In this document: positions 49,032 through 54,592 of the stretch, piece after piece
Position numbering within the stretch: the first letter of the stretch is position 1
Layout: each line of letters begins with the position of its first letter
Origin: Streptomyces sp. NWU339
Lineage (GTDB): Bacteria > Actinomycetota > Actinomycetes > Streptomycetales > Streptomycetaceae
Assembly (NCBI RefSeq): GCF_003143855.1
Contig: NZ_QFRK01000025.1
Coordinates: 12,940-76,939 of the forward strand
Length of the DNA: 64,000 bases
Direction: 5' to 3'
Translations under genes and position numbers: made by a program
Notes under the pieces: model-generated
Told to the model about the DNA's origin: nothing
Database searches by the model: none
The model's input: only the letters and a program-made list of their open reading frames with translations

Positions 49032-49685
49032 TCAGGACCGCGCGAGGGCCGCGAGGCGCAGGTCGCGGGTGCGGCTCTGGTGCTCGATGACGTGCTGCCG
49101 GGCGGCCGACGCGTCGCCGCGGCGGATCGCGTCCAGGATCCGGGTGTGCTCCTCGAGGATCAGGGTGAGGTTGTCCGGCCGGGTGGTGGTGCCGGAGTCG
49201 TAGACCTTCAGCTGGGCGTCCAGACGGTCCATCAGCTCGATGATCGTCGCATTGTGCCCGGCCTCGCGCAGTGCCCGGTGCCACTGTTGGTTGAGTTCCT
49301 GCAGCTCCGCGGGGTCCGTCGACGCCGCGGCGGACTCGTGGACGTGGACGAGTCGGGCCAGGTCGAGCTCGGTCCGCCGGGTCGCGGCCGTCTGCGCGGC
49401 CGACGATTCCAGTGCGATGCGCGCCTCGCAGATCTCCAGGATCTCCTGGGGGGTGCGGGTGCGTACCACATAGCCGCGAGTGGCCCGGGTCACCAGGCCT
49501 TCCTGCTCGAGCCGGATCAGCGCCTCCCGGACAGGAGTGCGCGAGACGTTGAACTGCGTGCTGAGACCAGTCGGGATCAGGACGGTTCCGGGGGGTGACT
49601 GGCCGTCGAGGATGCTCTGCCGGATCCGGGCGTAGTGGCTGCCCGCGCCCGTATCGGCGCCCCGGTCTCCCCGTGCGGTGCTCAA
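49032..49685 (-). CDS. GntR-family (FadR type) regulator of the sulfur operon
   Basis: 217 residues. N-terminal winged HTH (ARIRQSILDGQSPPGTVLIPTGLSTQFNVSRTPVREALIRLEQEGLVTR, about 18-65) and an FCD-type ligand domain (EARIALESSAAQTAATRR to HNATIIELMDRLD, then EHTRILDAIRRGDASAARQHVIEH) with its metal-type His positions. It diverges from the sulfonate operon, and the palindrome at 49794 between them is a fitting operator for itself and the operon. TTG 49685 follows GGGGAG nine bases away. Ligand unknown, perhaps a sulfonate or a degradation product. Confidence 0.88.
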   Translation of the reverse strand: MSTARGDRGADTGAGSHYARIRQSILDGQSPPGTVLIPTGLSTQFNVSRTPVREALIRLEQEGLVTRATRGYVVRTRTPQEILEICEARIALESSAAQTAATRRTELDLARLVHVHESAAASTDPAELQELNQQWHRALREAGHNATIIELMDRLDAQLKVYDSGTTTRPDNLTLILEEHTRILDAIRRGDASAARQHVIEHQSRTRDLRLAALARS

Positions 49686-49793
49686 ACTGGTCGCTCCCCT
49701 TCCGTACCGAGGACCGGCCCGTCGTCGGCGCACGCGAAGCGGTGCTTTCGGCGGACAGGTGTTCTCGCGATTCGAGACGCCCATAGTCTGCCA

Positions 49794-49813
49794 CTGTCTA
49801 CATGTGTATACAG
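49794..49813. promoter_or_regulatory. 20-bp palindrome, probable GntR operator
   Basis: CTGTCTACATGTGTATACAG: arms CTGT-x-TACA and TGTA-x-ACAG are symmetric apart from one position per arm. It contains TGTATACA. It lies in the divergent gap between the GntR gene and the sulfur operon. Confidence 0.65.
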
Positions 49814-49918
49814 TTGCTTGCAGTTGAATCCGGACATGGGGACCGTCGCGTCCTCAGGTCCGGGTCCACGTTCGAGTGCATGAGCCATGCACGCCTGACG
49901 GGATTTCGGGAGCTTCTG

Positions 49919-50059
49919 ATGCATCGTGGCGCGCAGCCAGGGCGGTACGCCGCCCACCCGGCGCACCCGGTAGCCGGGCCGACCTCCCGCTTCTGCAACA
50001 GCCTGACGAGCCGTCGGCACATCGACTTCATGCGCGTCGTCAGCACGGGCTGTTGTTGA
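49919..50059 (+). CDS. Cysteine-ended leader peptide upstream of the sulfur operon
   Basis: 46 residues from ATG 49919 with GGGAG six bases before. The C-terminus LTSRRHIDFMRVVSTGCC carries the R-R-H-(I/V)-D motif seen in the small leader peptides found upstream of many actinobacterial sulfur genes, and ends in Cys-Cys before the TGA. Such peptides are thought to make translation, and hence downstream expression, respond to charged tRNA-Cys. A strong RNA hairpin follows (50079-50115). It is 262 nt upstream of the first transporter gene. Confidence 0.78.
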   Translation: MHRGAQPGRYAAHPAHPVAGPTSRFCNSLTSRRHIDFMRVVSTGCC

Positions 50060-50078
50060 TCGCACGCGCACTCCGCCT

Positions 50079-50115
50079 GCCGCGTTCCGGCCGCTGAGAC
50101 AGCGGCGGGCGCGGC
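50079..50115 (+). promoter_or_regulatory. RNA hairpin after the leader peptide (attenuator candidate)
   Basis: GCCGCG (50079-50084) pairs with CGCGGC (50110-50115), and the inner CCGCTG (50091-50096) pairs with CAGCGG (50100-50105) around AGA. It begins 20 nt after the leader stop, inside the region a ribosome stalled on the Cys codons would influence. Confidence 0.5.
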
Positions 50116-50321
50116 CGTGTCCGGCCCGACCGCAGGCGCGTCCCGTCTCCCGCCCCAGCTCGCCCCGCCCAGTCCACTGTTCGGCATGGCTCCGGGAGCC
50201 GGCTCCGGGCACCGCCCCCAAGGCCTCACCGCCACACGGCCCCGAAGTCCTTCCCGGCTGTCGCCCCACACCGGCCAAGCGGTCGGACGGGCGGCCGAAC
50301 CACTCCTGAAGGGGATCTCCC
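50116..50321. other. Long 5' leader of the sulfur operon
   Basis: About 200 bases without a gene between the leader hairpin and ssuC. It probably carries a rearranging RNA region; I see GC-rich segments that could pair with the leader hairpin but no clear terminator with a T-run. Confidence 0.35.
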
Positions 50322-51227
50322 ATGCCCGAGCAGACGCTGCTCGCCAAGGACCGACCACCGCATCCCGGTCCTGACGGCCCTGTCGGACGACCCGGCGCAC
50401 CGGGGAAGGGGGCGGCCGGGCCGTCCTCCGCCGGACGCAACCGCCGGGCGCTGCTGCGCACCGCCCGCACGGCCGGCCCCTGGGCCGTCCCCCTGCTGGT
50501 CCTGGTGGTGTGGCAGTGGACCGCCGCGGCCGGCATCCTGCCGCCGTCCATCCTCCCCGCCCCCGAAGCGGTTCTGCGGGCGGGAAGCGATCTGGCCGCC
50601 ACCGGAGAACTCCAGTTCCACATCCTCACCAGTCTGCGGCGCATCCTGCAGGGCTTCGCCCTGGGCGCGGCCACCGGCCTGCTCCTGGGCTTCCTGGTCG
50701 GCATGTCGAAGGTGACGGAGATCCTCCTCGACCGGTCCCTGCAGATGGTGCGCACCATCCCGCACCTGGCTCTGGTGCCGCTGATGATCGCCTGGTTCGG
50801 CATCGGGGAGGAACCCAAGATCCTCCTCGTGGCGCTGGGCACCTTCTTCCCCATCTACCTGAACACCGTGACCGGCATCCGCGGGGTCGACCCCAAGCTG
50901 CTGCAGCTCGGCCGCTCCTACGGACTGGGACGGTGGCGCCTGGTGCGCGACATCGCCGTCCCCGGGGCCATGCCCACCATCCTGTCCGGCATCCGGTACT
51001 CCCTCGGCGTCGCCTGGATGACCCTCGTGGTCGCCGAGACCATCTCGGCCAGCGACGGGATCGGCTACCTCGCCCAGAACGCCCGCGAGTTGCTGCGCAC
51101 CGACCAGATCGTCCTCGCCATCGTGCTGTACGCACTGGCCGGCCTGCTCGCCGACCTCCTGACCAGGCTCATCGAAAGGAGGGTGCTCCGGTGGCACCCC
51201 AACTACCGCCCGCGGGCGACCCAGTGA
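50322..51227 (+). CDS. ssuC: Aliphatic-sulfonate-type ABC transporter permease
   Basis: 301 residues with an unusual 40-residue hydrophilic N-terminus, then about six transmembrane helices starting at TAGPWAVPLLVLVVWQWTAAAGIL. The EAA loop is LLQLGRSYGLGRWRLVRDIAVPGAMPTILSGI (about 190-220). BPD_transp_1 family, sulfonate/nitrate/taurine type. It forms the membrane channel with the SsuB-like ATPase and the SsuA-like binding protein that follow. ATG 50322 has GAAGGGGA upstream. It is the first gene of the operon and overlaps ssuB by 37 nt. Confidence 0.9.
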   Translation: MPEQTLLAKDRPPHPGPDGPVGRPGAPGKGAAGPSSAGRNRRALLRTARTAGPWAVPLLVLVVWQWTAAAGILPPSILPAPEAVLRAGSDLAATGELQFHILTSLRRILQGFALGAATGLLLGFLVGMSKVTEILLDRSLQMVRTIPHLALVPLMIAWFGIGEEPKILLVALGTFFPIYLNTVTGIRGVDPKLLQLGRSYGLGRWRLVRDIAVPGAMPTILSGIRYSLGVAWMTLVVAETISASDGIGYLAQNARELLRTDQIVLAIVLYALAGLLADLLTRLIERRVLRWHPNYRPRATQ

Positions 51228-51967
51228 CCCCGGCGCGGGCGGGCGCCCGGCTCGCCCTGGACGGCCTGGGCCGGCAGTACGGCGACCGGTGGGTCCTGGA
51301 GAACCTCGACCTGGACGTCGAAGCCGGCTCCTTCGTCTCCTTCCTCGGTCCCAGCGGCGCGGGCAAGAGCACCCTGCTGCGGATCGTCGCCGGGCTGGAG
51401 GAGCCGAGCGCGGGAACCGTCCAGCTCCACGGTGCCGGTCCACAGCCGCCCATGGTGCGGATGATGTTCCAGGAGGACCGGATGCTGCCCTGGCGCACGG
51501 TCGAGGACAACGTGCTGCTGGGTGTCAAGGGCCGCAGGGATGAGGCACGCACCCTGCTGGAGGCCGTGGGACTGGCCGACCGCGGCGGCGCCTGGCCGGC
51601 CGAGCTCTCCGGTGGGCAGAGGCAGCGCGTCGCCCTGGCCCGCGCCCTGCTCCACCACCCCGAACTGCTGCTCCTGGACGAGCCGTTCGGTGCTCTGGAC
51701 GCGATCACCCGGATCGCCATGCAGCAGCTCCTGGAACGCCTGTGGCTGGAGCAGCCGCGCACCGTCCTGCTGGTGACCCATGACGTGGAGGAGGCGCTCG
51801 TGCTCTCCGACCGCGTCCTGGTGCTGGCCGACGGCGCCGTCGGCCGCGACCTGCACATCGACCTGCCCCGCGGGGAGCGGCGCGGCCACCCCCGCCTCGT
51901 CGCCTGGAAGGAGGAACTGCTCCAGGGTCTCCTCGAACCGCACTCCTCCGTCCCGGTCGACGCCTGA
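51191..51967 (+). CDS. ssuB: Sulfonate-type ABC transporter ATPase
   Basis: 258 residues. Walker A LGPSGAGKSTLL, Q-loop MMFQEDRMLPW, signature LSGGQRQRVALARAL, Walker B LLLLDEPFGALD, and H-loop LLVTHDVEEAL. It hydrolyses ATP to drive uptake. The start is GTG 51191, eight bases after a perfect AGGAGG (51177-51182); it lies inside the ssuC 3' end, giving translational coupling. A GTG at 51224 (GTGA overlap) is an alternative that loses the strong site. Confidence 0.92.
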   Translation: MAPQLPPAGDPVTPARAGARLALDGLGRQYGDRWVLENLDLDVEAGSFVSFLGPSGAGKSTLLRIVAGLEEPSAGTVQLHGAGPQPPMVRMMFQEDRMLPWRTVEDNVLLGVKGRRDEARTLLEAVGLADRGGAWPAELSGGQRQRVALARALLHHPELLLLDEPFGALDAITRIAMQQLLERLWLEQPRTVLLVTHDVEEALVLSDRVLVLADGAVGRDLHIDLPRGERRGHPRLVAWKEELLQGLLEPHSSVPVDA

Positions 51968-52046
51968 CCCCGCGCCCCCCACCGCCGCCACCCGCACCCC
52001 CGCTTCCGCCCGCCCGAGCAACGCGCCACCGAGAAAGAACCCGACC

Positions 52047-53168
52047 GTGACCGTGAACCGTCCGTTCTCCCGTTCGACCACGGGAGCCTCCCCGCTCCTG
52101 TCCAAAAACGTCTCGCGCCGCCGCATCCTGGCCGTCGGCGGTGCCGCCGCCCTCGCCCCGGCGCTGGCCGCCTGCGGCGGCGGAGCGCGGCCGGGCAACG
52201 CGGCGCTGGCCGACGGCGTGCCGCAGAAGCTCCGCTACGCGGTCATCGGCAGCGGCAGGACCGGTACCCCGGCGGCCCTGCGCTACAAGTTCGACGGCGT
52301 GGACCTGGGCAAGGAACTCGGCGGCACCACCGTCACCTGGCCGTCCGGGTTCACCGCCTCGCTGCCGGTGATGGAGGCGCTCAAGGCCGGCAGCGTCGAC
52401 CTCACCTTCGCCACCGCCACCGCCGTGGCCTACGCGATCGGCGGGGGCGTGCCCATCGTGCCGCTCGCCGCCTACCCGCTGCCCGCCAACGAGGTCGAGA
52501 TCCTCGTCCCCCAGAACTCTTCCATCCGCGGCGCCGCCGACCTCAAGGGCAAGCGGGTCGCCGACCAGCAGGGCACCACCGGCACCTACAGCCTCATCAA
52601 GTACCTGCAGACCGCCGGCCTGCGACTGGACGACGTCGAGTACGTCAACCTGCCGGCCGCCGACGCCGAGTCGGCCTTCGCCAACGGCAAGGTGGACGCC
52701 TGGATCAGCTGGACGCCGGCCATCAGCCTGGGCCGGGCCCGGCACAAGGCCCGCAGGCTGCCGAACGTCAGGACCTACGACTACTCCTTCTACGTGGCCA
52801 GCGAGTCCTTCGCCGAGGAGTACCCCGAGGCCGCGGCGAAGGTGGTGCGTGTCATCCGGGACACCCAGCGCCGCGTCAACGCCCGTCCCGAGGCGAGCGT
52901 CGAGTTCTTCGACAAGATCGGCGGATTCGGCTCGGAGGACCTCGAGCGCGAGGTGTTCCTCGAGCTGACCAAGGAGAAGAGGCTCTCGGACTCCAACGCC
53001 GACCAACTCGCGCCGGTGGACCGCAAGGCGATCGAGAACACCCAGGACCTCGCCGACAGCTTCCACGCCCTGGGCGTCTACCCCTCGAAGATCGACGTGA
53101 CCGGGTTCCTGCAGGACTCCCGGTTCGACACGGTCAAGAAGGCGGTGGCCGCCGAACTGGCCAAGTGA
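52047..53168 (+). CDS. ssuA: Sulfonate-type substrate-binding lipoprotein (Tat-lipobox)
   Basis: 373 residues. The N-terminus SRRRILAVGGAAALAPALAAC has a twin-arginine motif and a lipobox Cys, as for Tat-exported lipoproteins. The mature part is a type-2 periplasmic-binding fold of the SsuA/NrtA type: VTWPSGFTASLPVMEALKAGSVDLTFATAT, DLKGKRVADQQGTTGTYSLIKYL, KVDAWISWTPAI. It captures an organosulfonate outside the membrane and hands it to the permease. GTG 52047 was chosen; GTG 52053 is possible. Confidence 0.9.
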   Translation: MTVNRPFSRSTTGASPLLSKNVSRRRILAVGGAAALAPALAACGGGARPGNAALADGVPQKLRYAVIGSGRTGTPAALRYKFDGVDLGKELGGTTVTWPSGFTASLPVMEALKAGSVDLTFATATAVAYAIGGGVPIVPLAAYPLPANEVEILVPQNSSIRGAADLKGKRVADQQGTTGTYSLIKYLQTAGLRLDDVEYVNLPAADAESAFANGKVDAWISWTPAISLGRARHKARRLPNVRTYDYSFYVASESFAEEYPEAAAKVVRVIRDTQRRVNARPEASVEFFDKIGGFGSEDLEREVFLELTKEKRLSDSNADQLAPVDRKAIENTQDLADSFHALGVYPSKIDVTGFLQDSRFDTVKKAVAAELAK

Positions 53169-53224
53169 CCGACAGGGCGCACCACAGGACACACAGCACC
53201 ACAGCACGGAAGAGAGAACACGCA

Positions 53225-54592
53225 GTGAGCACCCCCGAGAACCAGATGCACCTCGCGGCCTTCGTGACCGCGGGCCCCGGCCGGCCCGGCGGCTGGCGCC
53301 ACCCCGGCTCCGAGCCCGGCTGGCTGTCGGCCTCCTACTACCAGCACATCGGCCGCGTGCTCGAGCAGGGCAAGTTCGACCTGATGTTCCTCCCGGACAT
53401 CCTGTCCGTGCCCGACCGCCTCGGCGGCAGCATGGACAGCCAGCTGCGCTACGGCGCGCTCGGCTCCCTGCGGCTCGATCCGACGCCGGTGCTGTCGGCG
53501 GTCGCCGCCGCCACCACCCGGCTCGGCGTGGCCGCCACGATCTCCACCAGCTACTTCGAGCCCTTCCCCGTGGCGCGCTCCTTCGCCACGCTCGACCACC
53601 TCAGTGACGGCCGCGCCGCCTGGAACGTGGTGACCTCCTTCCAGGACTCCGAGGCCCGCAACTTCGGCGAGGACCGGCACATCGACCGCGACCAGCGCTA
53701 CGAGCGGGCCGACGAGTTCCTCGAGGTGACCTGCAAGCTGTGGGACAGCTGGGAGGACGACGCCCTCGCGGCGGACCCGGAGGCCCCCCTCTTCGCCGAC
53801 CCCGACCGCGTGCACGCCATCGACCACAAGGGGGAGTGGTTCAACGTCCGCGGCCCGCTGAACACGCCCCGGCCGCCCCAGGGCTACCCGGTGATCATCC
53901 AGGCCGGGGCATCCCCCAAGGGCCGCGACTTCGCGGCGCGCTGGTCCGACGTCATCTTCTGCAGCCACGCCTCCCTGGAATCGGCCAAGGACTTCTACCA
54001 GGACATCAAGGCCCGGGCGGTCCGCCACGGCCGCCGTGCCGAGGACGTCAAGATCCTCCCCATGGCCACCCCCATCATCGGTCCCACCACCGAGGCCGCG
54101 CGCGAGGCCGAGCAGCGCCTGGCGGACCTGGTCCCGCCGCTGGCCGGCCTGTCGACCCTCGCCTACCACCTGGACGTGGACCTCTCGGAGCTGCCGCTCG
54201 ACGAGCCGCTGCCCGACGTCGACGTCCCCGGTGTCCAGGGGCACTACAAGGAGGTCGTGGAGATGACCCGGCGCGAGGGGCTGACCCTGCGTGAGCTGGG
54301 CAAGCGGTACGGCGGCCGTACCGAGGGCTCCTTCGTCGGCACGGCGGCCGAGGTCGCCGACGGCATGGCGCAGTGGTTCACCGAGGGCGCCTGCGACGGC
54401 TTCACCGTGGGCGCCGTCCACACGCCGGGCGCCTTCGAGGACTTCGTCCGCCAGGTGGTGCCCGACCTGCAGCGCCGCGGCCTGTTCCGCACCGAGTACG
54501 AGGGCACCACCCTGCGCGACCACCTGGGCCTGGAGCGCCCCGAGACCGGGCAGTGGCGCAACCGCCGGGACGGGAACGGCGACAACGGCTGA
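53225..54592 (+). CDS. NtaA/SnaA/DszA/DmoA-type FMN-dependent monooxygenase
   Basis: 455 residues of luciferase-like TIM-barrel type. Motifs: GKFDLMFLPDILSVPDRLGGSMDSQLRYG, ATISTSYFEPFPVARSFATLDHLSDGRAAWNVVTSFQDSEARNFGE, and GYPVIIQAGASPKGRDFAARWSDVIFCSH (flavin contact). This branch (nitrilotriacetate and dibenzothiophene-sulfone monooxygenases) is longer than SsuD (about 380). With the sulfonate transporter and FMN reductase it probably desulfonates or oxidises an organosulfur compound using FMNH2. The exact substrate is unknown. GTG 53225 has AAGAGAGAA upstream. Confidence 0.88.
   Translation: MSTPENQMHLAAFVTAGPGRPGGWRHPGSEPGWLSASYYQHIGRVLEQGKFDLMFLPDILSVPDRLGGSMDSQLRYGALGSLRLDPTPVLSAVAAATTRLGVAATISTSYFEPFPVARSFATLDHLSDGRAAWNVVTSFQDSEARNFGEDRHIDRDQRYERADEFLEVTCKLWDSWEDDALAADPEAPLFADPDRVHAIDHKGEWFNVRGPLNTPRPPQGYPVIIQAGASPKGRDFAARWSDVIFCSHASLESAKDFYQDIKARAVRHGRRAEDVKILPMATPIIGPTTEAAREAEQRLADLVPPLAGLSTLAYHLDVDLSELPLDEPLPDVDVPGVQGHYKEVVEMTRREGLTLRELGKRYGGRTEGSFVGTAAEVADGMAQWFTEGACDGFTVGAVHTPGAFEDFVRQVVPDLQRRGLFRTEYEGTTLRDHLGLERPETGQWRNRRDGNGDNG

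Follow-up and report, generated by a model that had tools for sequence, protein, structure and literature searches.

A putative cysteine-type leader peptide with a conserved UGU codon upstream of a Streptomyces ssu operon

In Escherichia coli, the leader tnaC senses free tryptophan, and a ribosome stalled near its stop codon blocks Rho. Leaderless polycysteine short open reading frames (ORFs) of mycobacteria were reportedly described by Canestrari in 2020. In the excerpts of Seliverstov 2005 that we consulted (PMC1262725), leaders with runs of Cys codons are described in mycobacteria, P. acnes and B. longum; there, Rho-dependent termination is a weak prediction for the mycobacterial cys leaders, and the tna operon is invoked. 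Ribosome occupancy of a Cys-run short ORF in M. smegmatis is reported in the available part of Shell 2015 (PMC4633059). The sections consulted of a 2021 S. lividans transcriptome (PMC8079986) give eight leader peptides, none of which is described there as cysteine-dependent.

Leaders with an RRHxD motif are already represented in NCBIfam by NF042934 (cis_reg_atten, 'putative leader peptide'), and NF042936 represents the Ms4527A family Cys-rich leader peptide. The literature that we searched held no mechanism for the RRHxD leaders of Streptomyces, and the titles and abstracts of this partial literature held no treatment of TGT codon invariance. Here, we describe an ORF of this kind in the 9.4-Mb genome of Streptomyces sp. 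NWU339, found in a window of 64,000 nucleotides (the whole stretch of DNA that we analyzed). What is new is a Cys at a fixed distance of 11 residues from the motif His (His+11) and the invariant TGT codon that encodes it. The preliminary description of this DNA missed this spacing, the codon and the C-rich downstream RNA. Like the mycobacterial polycysteine short ORFs, as the excerpted sources present them, the ORF described here is short, has Cys codons towards its end and precedes sulfur genes. Those leaders have Cys clusters on leaderless mRNAs, whereas the one in the window has a single conserved UGU, a likely 5′ untranslated region and a Shine-Dalgarno sequence.

The leader ORF and its operon

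The leader ORF occupies positions 49919 to 50059 of the forward strand (46 codons plus stop) and runs from MHRG to LTSRRHIDFMRVVSTGCC. Its Shine-Dalgarno sequence, GGGAG (49908 to 49912), lies 6 nt 5′ of the ATG. The motif RRHIDF is encoded at 50012 to 50029 (motif His codon, 50018 to 50020), and the conserved Cys codon, the candidate sensor, is a TGT at 50051 to 50053. It is followed by a second TGT Cys codon (50054 to 50056), which among the orthologs is peculiar to the window sequence. The distance from the leader stop to the ssuC ATG (50322) is 262 nt. A 46-codon ORF with a good ribosome-binding site, this ending and this distance from ssuC had been claimed before, and all of these were borne out. 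Both GGGAG and the ATG are retained in eight of the nine aligned orthologous regions, and pN/pS over 16 leader codons was 0.49 in frame, compared with 0.65 and 2.00 in the other frames. Because the RRH[IV]D leader is retained in all eight Streptomyces orthologous loci (SsuC identity of at least 70%) and pN/pS is lowest in frame, the ORF goes beyond chance; on this comparative evidence, it is real, conserved and under in-frame selection.

We consider this ORF very probably a cysteine-type leader. It aligns to model positions 2 to 19 of the 21 in NF042936, with E = 7.8 × 10−6 and 25.4 bits, below the cut-off of 45, and it also falls below the curated cut-off of NF042934 (E = 0.017; 14.8 bits against 27). 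It resembles the NF042934 leaders in the RRHxDL motif, the Cys at His+11 and the sulfur-linked genes downstream, but ends in STGCC rather than in a SAIC-like sequence. It fits the pattern H[VI]D[LF] with Cys at His+11, a feature that we read from NF042934 matches and that is not NCBI's definition. A search of Rfam over 49500 to 50500 gave zero matches up to E = 1, as did a tblastn search of plasmids with the leader as query. The ORF had been called too short to be noticed; its scores do lie below the NCBI cut-offs, but models for such leaders exist.

Downstream, on the same strand, are genes for an ssuC-like permease (50322 to 51227; NCBIfam PRK11365 SsuC, E = 5.2 × 10−86, below the equivalog cut-off), an ssuB-like ATPase (51224 to 51967; NCBIfam PRK11247, E = 6 × 10−88, below the equivalog cut-off), an ssuA-like substrate-binding protein with a putative start (51987 to 53168; TIGR01728, E = 4.1 × 10−47, 160.8 bits, just under the cut-off of 163.5) and an NtaA/DmoA-family FMN-dependent monooxygenase (53165 to 54592; TIGR03860, 534 bits against a cut-off of 279.7). 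Upstream, on the opposite strand, are a divergent gene for a GntR/FCD-type regulator (49032 to 49784; Pfam GntR and FCD) and a gene for an F420-type luciferase-like oxidoreductase. All eight Streptomyces orthologous loci have a gene for a GntR homolog ahead of ssuC, on the other strand; none was found in four proteobacterial loci, two of which offered only about 1.0 and 1.4 kb of upstream DNA; several of these twelve compared ssu loci are incomplete at their ends.

The palindrome TGTATACA (49805 to 49812, forward strand), a candidate GntR operator, has a single match in the 64 kb (0.02 expected) and is found in eight of the nine aligned orthologous regions. The preliminary description had suggested two-layer control, with a GntR regulator and its operator as one layer. 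The conserved palindrome and the divergent GntR gene support this as a suggestion, and a GntR protein at TGTATACA would probably set promoter activity. A candidate −35 box, TTGCAG (49818 to 49823, forward strand), was taken by eye from the alignment, in which eight of the nine rows are TTGC-like; in six of those eight, the box appears, again by eye, to stand 17 to 18 nt before a TAnnnT hexamer. The candidate −10 box from the same alignment, GACCGT (49841 to 49846, forward strand), is poor. Six orthologs have a TATGGT- or TATGAT-like sequence at this position, and S. hirsutus has TTCCAT. A sigma-70 scan gave zero promoters in the candidate −35/−10 stretch of the window. As regards the leaderless start of the mycobacterial polycysteine leaders, the leader described here has a Shine-Dalgarno sequence, and its orthologs have promoter-like boxes upstream.

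Related leaders and ssu lineages

The NF042934 family matched all 61 genomes of the same genus, with 3 to 16 matches per genome; at E = 0.01, the 14 control genomes gave no match. At E = 10, ten controls matched, none above the cut-off. Across the phylum, matches at E = 0.001 were found in 20 of 296 genomes and 8 of 197 genera, with 16 above the cut-off. In the genome of NWU339 itself, five matches pass the cut-off and one is just under it. These seem to precede cysO-cysM, a cysteine dioxygenase with a rhodanese, a dicarboxylate-type symporter, a sulfite reductase, a thiosulfate sulfurtransferase and an SsuA-like protein, all named from sequence and family tallies.

NF042934 loci were taken best-first from the match list, 80 of them retrieved from the genomes. 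Pfam families on 112 downstream proteins, a set that leaves out nine of the window ssu lineage, were ThiS (31), cysteine dioxygenase (24), luciferase-like monooxygenase (17), sulfatase (14), nitrite/sulfite reductase (10), NMT1-type (3), TauD (1) and rhodanese (1). About 100 of the 112 belong to sulfur-linked families, and SsuA_fam matched four of the downstream proteins scanned. The starts of genes downstream of the leaders are automatic guesses, and none was obtained for L271 and L200. RRH(I/V)D leaders had been said to lie upstream of actinobacterial sulfur genes, and the mostly sulfur-linked downstream genes agree with this.

A scan of genome contigs for SsuC (80 of 86 loci kept) gave eight Streptomyces loci (L106–L112 and L175) with SsuC identities of 70 to 97%, the 97% being that of S. 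hirsutus (L106), and four proteobacterial loci (L113–L116, from Burkholderiales and a Xanthobacteraceae MAG) with identities of 66 to 67%. The order ssuC-ssuB-ssuA is common to all twelve; an RRH[IV]D leader was found in none of the four proteobacterial loci. A related monooxygenase follows ssuCBA in three of the four Burkholderiales/Xanthobacteraceae loci, to which the window cluster (50322 to 54592) is close. One further locus labelled Streptomyces (L165; SsuC 49% identical) had no leader by scan. The DNA of its contig, which carries the label Streptomyces cinereus JCM 3040, is rich in AT and looks unlike that of Streptomyces, and contamination is possible; the locus was left out of the orthologs because of this foreign-looking DNA.

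A tree of SsuC places the four proteobacterial rows with S. radicis and the window clade in one supported group of 13 members. Next to it, on a long branch, stands the usual Streptomyces SsuC (about 47% identical), and the wider group of 20 that takes this in is also supported. This grouping indicates that the transporter is of a different lineage from the usual Streptomyces SsuC; the tree settles neither a transfer of the operon nor its direction. In the other Streptomyces SsuC lineage, all 28 loci examined (L078–L105) have a leader, RGHIDLLRVASAAC, with a TGT sensor codon. They are the top-scoring ones among 75 matches, which came from 64 of 150 genomes and include two of the window lineage.

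Six orthologs were scanned with NF042934: the leader of S. radicis passes the cut-off of 27 at 34.1 bits, and the five others fall below it, at 21.9 to 24.5. One leader of the other ssu lineage passes at 30.3. A DNA search of the genus gave matches in 77 of 295 genomes, long only in the window itself and one orthologue (G130), and a protein search with the leader gave matches in 27 of 295 at E = 0.01, mostly weak and several of them not leaders. At one short DNA match (L011 in G164), the leader is nearly identical to that of L109, and the locus may be a further orthologue. The phylum search for close ssuC genes matched 1 of 396 genomes, which was the own genome alone.

A single invariant cysteine codon

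Outside the poly-Cys leaders, the conserved Cys at His+11 was encoded by TGT in 171 of 171 leaders. This set was pooled with the phylum loci and de-duplicated, and consists of 166 Streptomyces leaders and five from four other genera (L302 and L321, both among the latter, are from one genome), with 68 distinct 15-residue peptides. As the leaders are related, 171 is not the number of independent events; the six named groups and the four other genera nevertheless agree. Selection required Cys at His+11 for the pooled 171, for a set of 44 (TGT in 44/44) and for the other ssu lineage (28/28), but not for a set of 79, which also had TGT throughout (79/79); TGT was likewise found in L199. Left out of the 171 were L263 (leader unlocated, the locus ending at a contig end), L314 (a phylum match without Cys), two duplicates and the six poly-Cys loci L296–L298 and L311–L313. 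The last six, from other actinobacterial genera and with a related motif, have TGT at His+11 in four and TGC in two.

A recheck of all loci yielded 13 further motif ORFs. Seven of these have Cys at His+11 (L010, L011, L055, L057, L058, L059 and L063), encoded by TGT in 7/7; the rest are L312, L314 and four RRHIDL ORFs without Cys at His+11 (L021, L051, L062 and, on the minus strand, a second site in L299). Of these four, three have a TGC Cys codon at His+7 and one has no Cys after the motif; a further TGC stands at His+12 in L062. The RRHIDL motif can thus exist without the candidate sensor, and such ORFs may respond to another signal. Three of the four precede similar-looking proteins, by eye perhaps glutathione-transferase-like.

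Within two codons of the sensor, 114 of the 171 leaders have no other Cys and 57 have one. In 123 of the leaders, the Cys codons at other sites were 135 TGC and 27 TGT, with TGC prevailing 42:1 at His+4 and 23:1 at His+9. Directly after the sensor, at His+12, the count was 11 TGT and 7 TGC. Cys codons at His−8 were TGT in nine cases and TGC in five, so TGT is not restricted to the sensor position. Background frequencies of TGT, a rare codon, were 15/105, 52/328 and 7/106. Synonymous sites elsewhere in the leaders vary (Asp, 100 GAC and 23 GAT; His, 95 CAC and 27 CAT; Arg, five codons).

The preliminary description took the two Cys codons before the stop as the signal. Both are present in the window, but the second is lacking in all eight orthologs: at the codon of 50054 to 50056, seven have CGC (Arg), and S. 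radicis has AGC (Ser). Each ortholog has one C-terminal Cys, not a run of Cys codons. By this comparison of orthologous sequences, the tandem is rejected as the signal.

Bacterial tRNA-Cys carries a sulfur-containing modification at A37. One pattern search, which other genes could have escaped, found two tRNA-Cys genes; both have the anticodon GCA, which would leave UGU to be decoded by wobble.

Twenty-nine leaders (L036 and 28 others) form a class that precedes cysteine dioxygenase (CDO). This class carries an additional Cys at His+9, for which 23 of the 24 codons are TGC. Because CDO consumes cysteine, the class misfits simple derepression on starvation: either its regulation has the opposite sign, or its signal is other than simple cysteine shortage.

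Alternative readings and a proposed mechanism

Absolute conservation is unusual for a codon, and the invariant TGT could be an RNA or DNA element (a protein site, a pause signal or base pairing) rather than a matter of codon decoding. When the 171 leader regions were folded, the third U of the sensor codon was predicted to pair 64 nt upstream in 15 of the 29 CDO-class leaders, which makes an RNA role possible in that class, and 70 nt upstream in 5 of the 28 leaders of the other ssu lineage. However, no partner of this U was common to all groups, and base pairing as a general cause of TGT is unsupported. The two TGC codons among the six poly-Cys leaders also count against an element. All positions from −6 to +8 around the sensor codon vary, some only slightly, and this variability, together with the missing common partner, favours a decoding effect; we judge an RNA or DNA element unlikely. 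In-frame selection on the motif would also be expected of a functional small protein with no cis-regulatory role, but such ORFs precede unrelated genes and their N-termini are variable, which makes this reading extremely improbable.

A classical attenuator would use the tandem Cys codons and a hairpin noted earlier at 50079 to 50115, and both are present: the hairpin corresponds to a nested inverted repeat at 50080 to 50114 of the forward strand. Its stability is that of shuffled sequence, however, with 76 of 200 dinucleotide shuffles of 50060 to 50140 folding at least as well (z = −0.16); folding z over nine orthologous 75-nt stretches ranged from −2.07 to +1.25. Conservation upstream of related ssu operons, proposed earlier as a check, holds for the ORF and motif (8/8), but the sequence of the repeat is retained in the alignment only in S. 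hirsutus. No intrinsic terminator (terminator hairpin with U tract) was found after the leader. The hairpin is rejected as a terminator and has no supported effector role, and with the second Cys lacking in the orthologs, a classical attenuator is very unlikely. The stall of a ribosome on the leader might instead open structure that hides the ssuC Shine-Dalgarno sequence; mycobacterial cysteine leaders are a precedent for such translational attenuation in the excerpt consulted of PMC13236596. The stretch CACTCCTGAAGGGGAT (50301 to 50316, forward strand), near-identical in eight of nine regions, contains this Shine-Dalgarno sequence with a complementary CTCC just upstream, and its predicted accessibility of 0.03 to 0.32 points to local sequestration. 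With a modelled ribosome at UGU, however, accessibility rose by no more than 0.02 in eight orthologous sequences, so release by the stall is unsupported in the folding model. In those eight, the leader stop lies 212 to 262 nt from the ssuC start. Consensus folds of five operon classes, which covered 110 nt after the leader stop, had helices within the leader, few pairs further down and no structure of this kind; their column-shuffle control is too weak a null. We regard translational attenuation as rather doubtful. CACTCCTGAAGGGGAT is retained although much of the spacer diverges, and its CTCC is able to pair with the Shine-Dalgarno sequence.

Taken as a whole, the earlier observation stands for the ORF, Shine-Dalgarno sequence, spacing, GntR gene, palindrome and inverted repeat, but not for the hairpin as a special structure. 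Its interpretation stands for a cysteine-type leader before a sulfur operon, but not for tandem Cys as signal or the hairpin as effector.

We propose that the ssuCBA-monooxygenase operon is controlled by 49919 to 50059, which would encode a leader peptide responsive to cysteine; for the full scheme, coupling included, we put the chances at about even. With ample charged tRNA-Cys, the ribosome would read through the leader, terminate and leave, and the C-rich RNA downstream would be exposed to premature termination, for which Rho is the most likely factor. Under a shortage of charged tRNA-Cys, the ribosome would stall at the slow wobble codon UGU. The RRHxDL segment of the nascent chain, which would lie in the exit tunnel some ten residues behind, would favour arrest. 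Halted close to the stop codon of the leader, the ribosome would then mask the loading region, and the operon would be transcribed. The logic resembles that of tnaC, where Rho is blocked by a ribosome halted close to the leader stop; the signal there is free tryptophan, whereas here it would be the charge of tRNA-Cys. Of the parts of this scheme, a stall at the single UGU codon is likely. The Rho-type coupling is the weakest link, and we suggest it tentatively.

The candidate Rho loading region, chosen by composition, is the C-rich spacer at 50060 to 50300 of the forward strand. For the 80 nt directly behind the leader, C minus G was 0.196 in the 171 leaders and 0.079 in 82 control upstream windows placed by automatically guessed gene starts, and it exceeded 0.1 in 91% of leaders versus 40% of control windows. 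This C-richness agrees with Rho-dependent termination, short of proof. Against the scheme, a classical attenuator would be expected to have more than one Cys codon, the C-richness after the leader is modest and the loci are related, and the −10 box in the window is poor.

A motif at fixed spacing, together with one synonymous codon that never varied in the sample, makes a sharp prediction: regulation should be weakened or lost on a silent change of UGU to UGC. It is possible, though we hold it with reserve, that Streptomyces has a genome-wide sulfur regulon run by arrest-type leaders whose cysteine sensing depends on one obligatory UGU; the G34-U wobble of tRNA-Cys(GCA), and perhaps the A37 modification too, would then be the sensor, and RRHxDL would replace runs of codons. 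At the locus described here, an operon with a transporter close to proteobacterial ones bears a leader of the actinobacterial type. More broadly, the leaders point to possible sites of regulation for many sulfur genes of Streptomyces.
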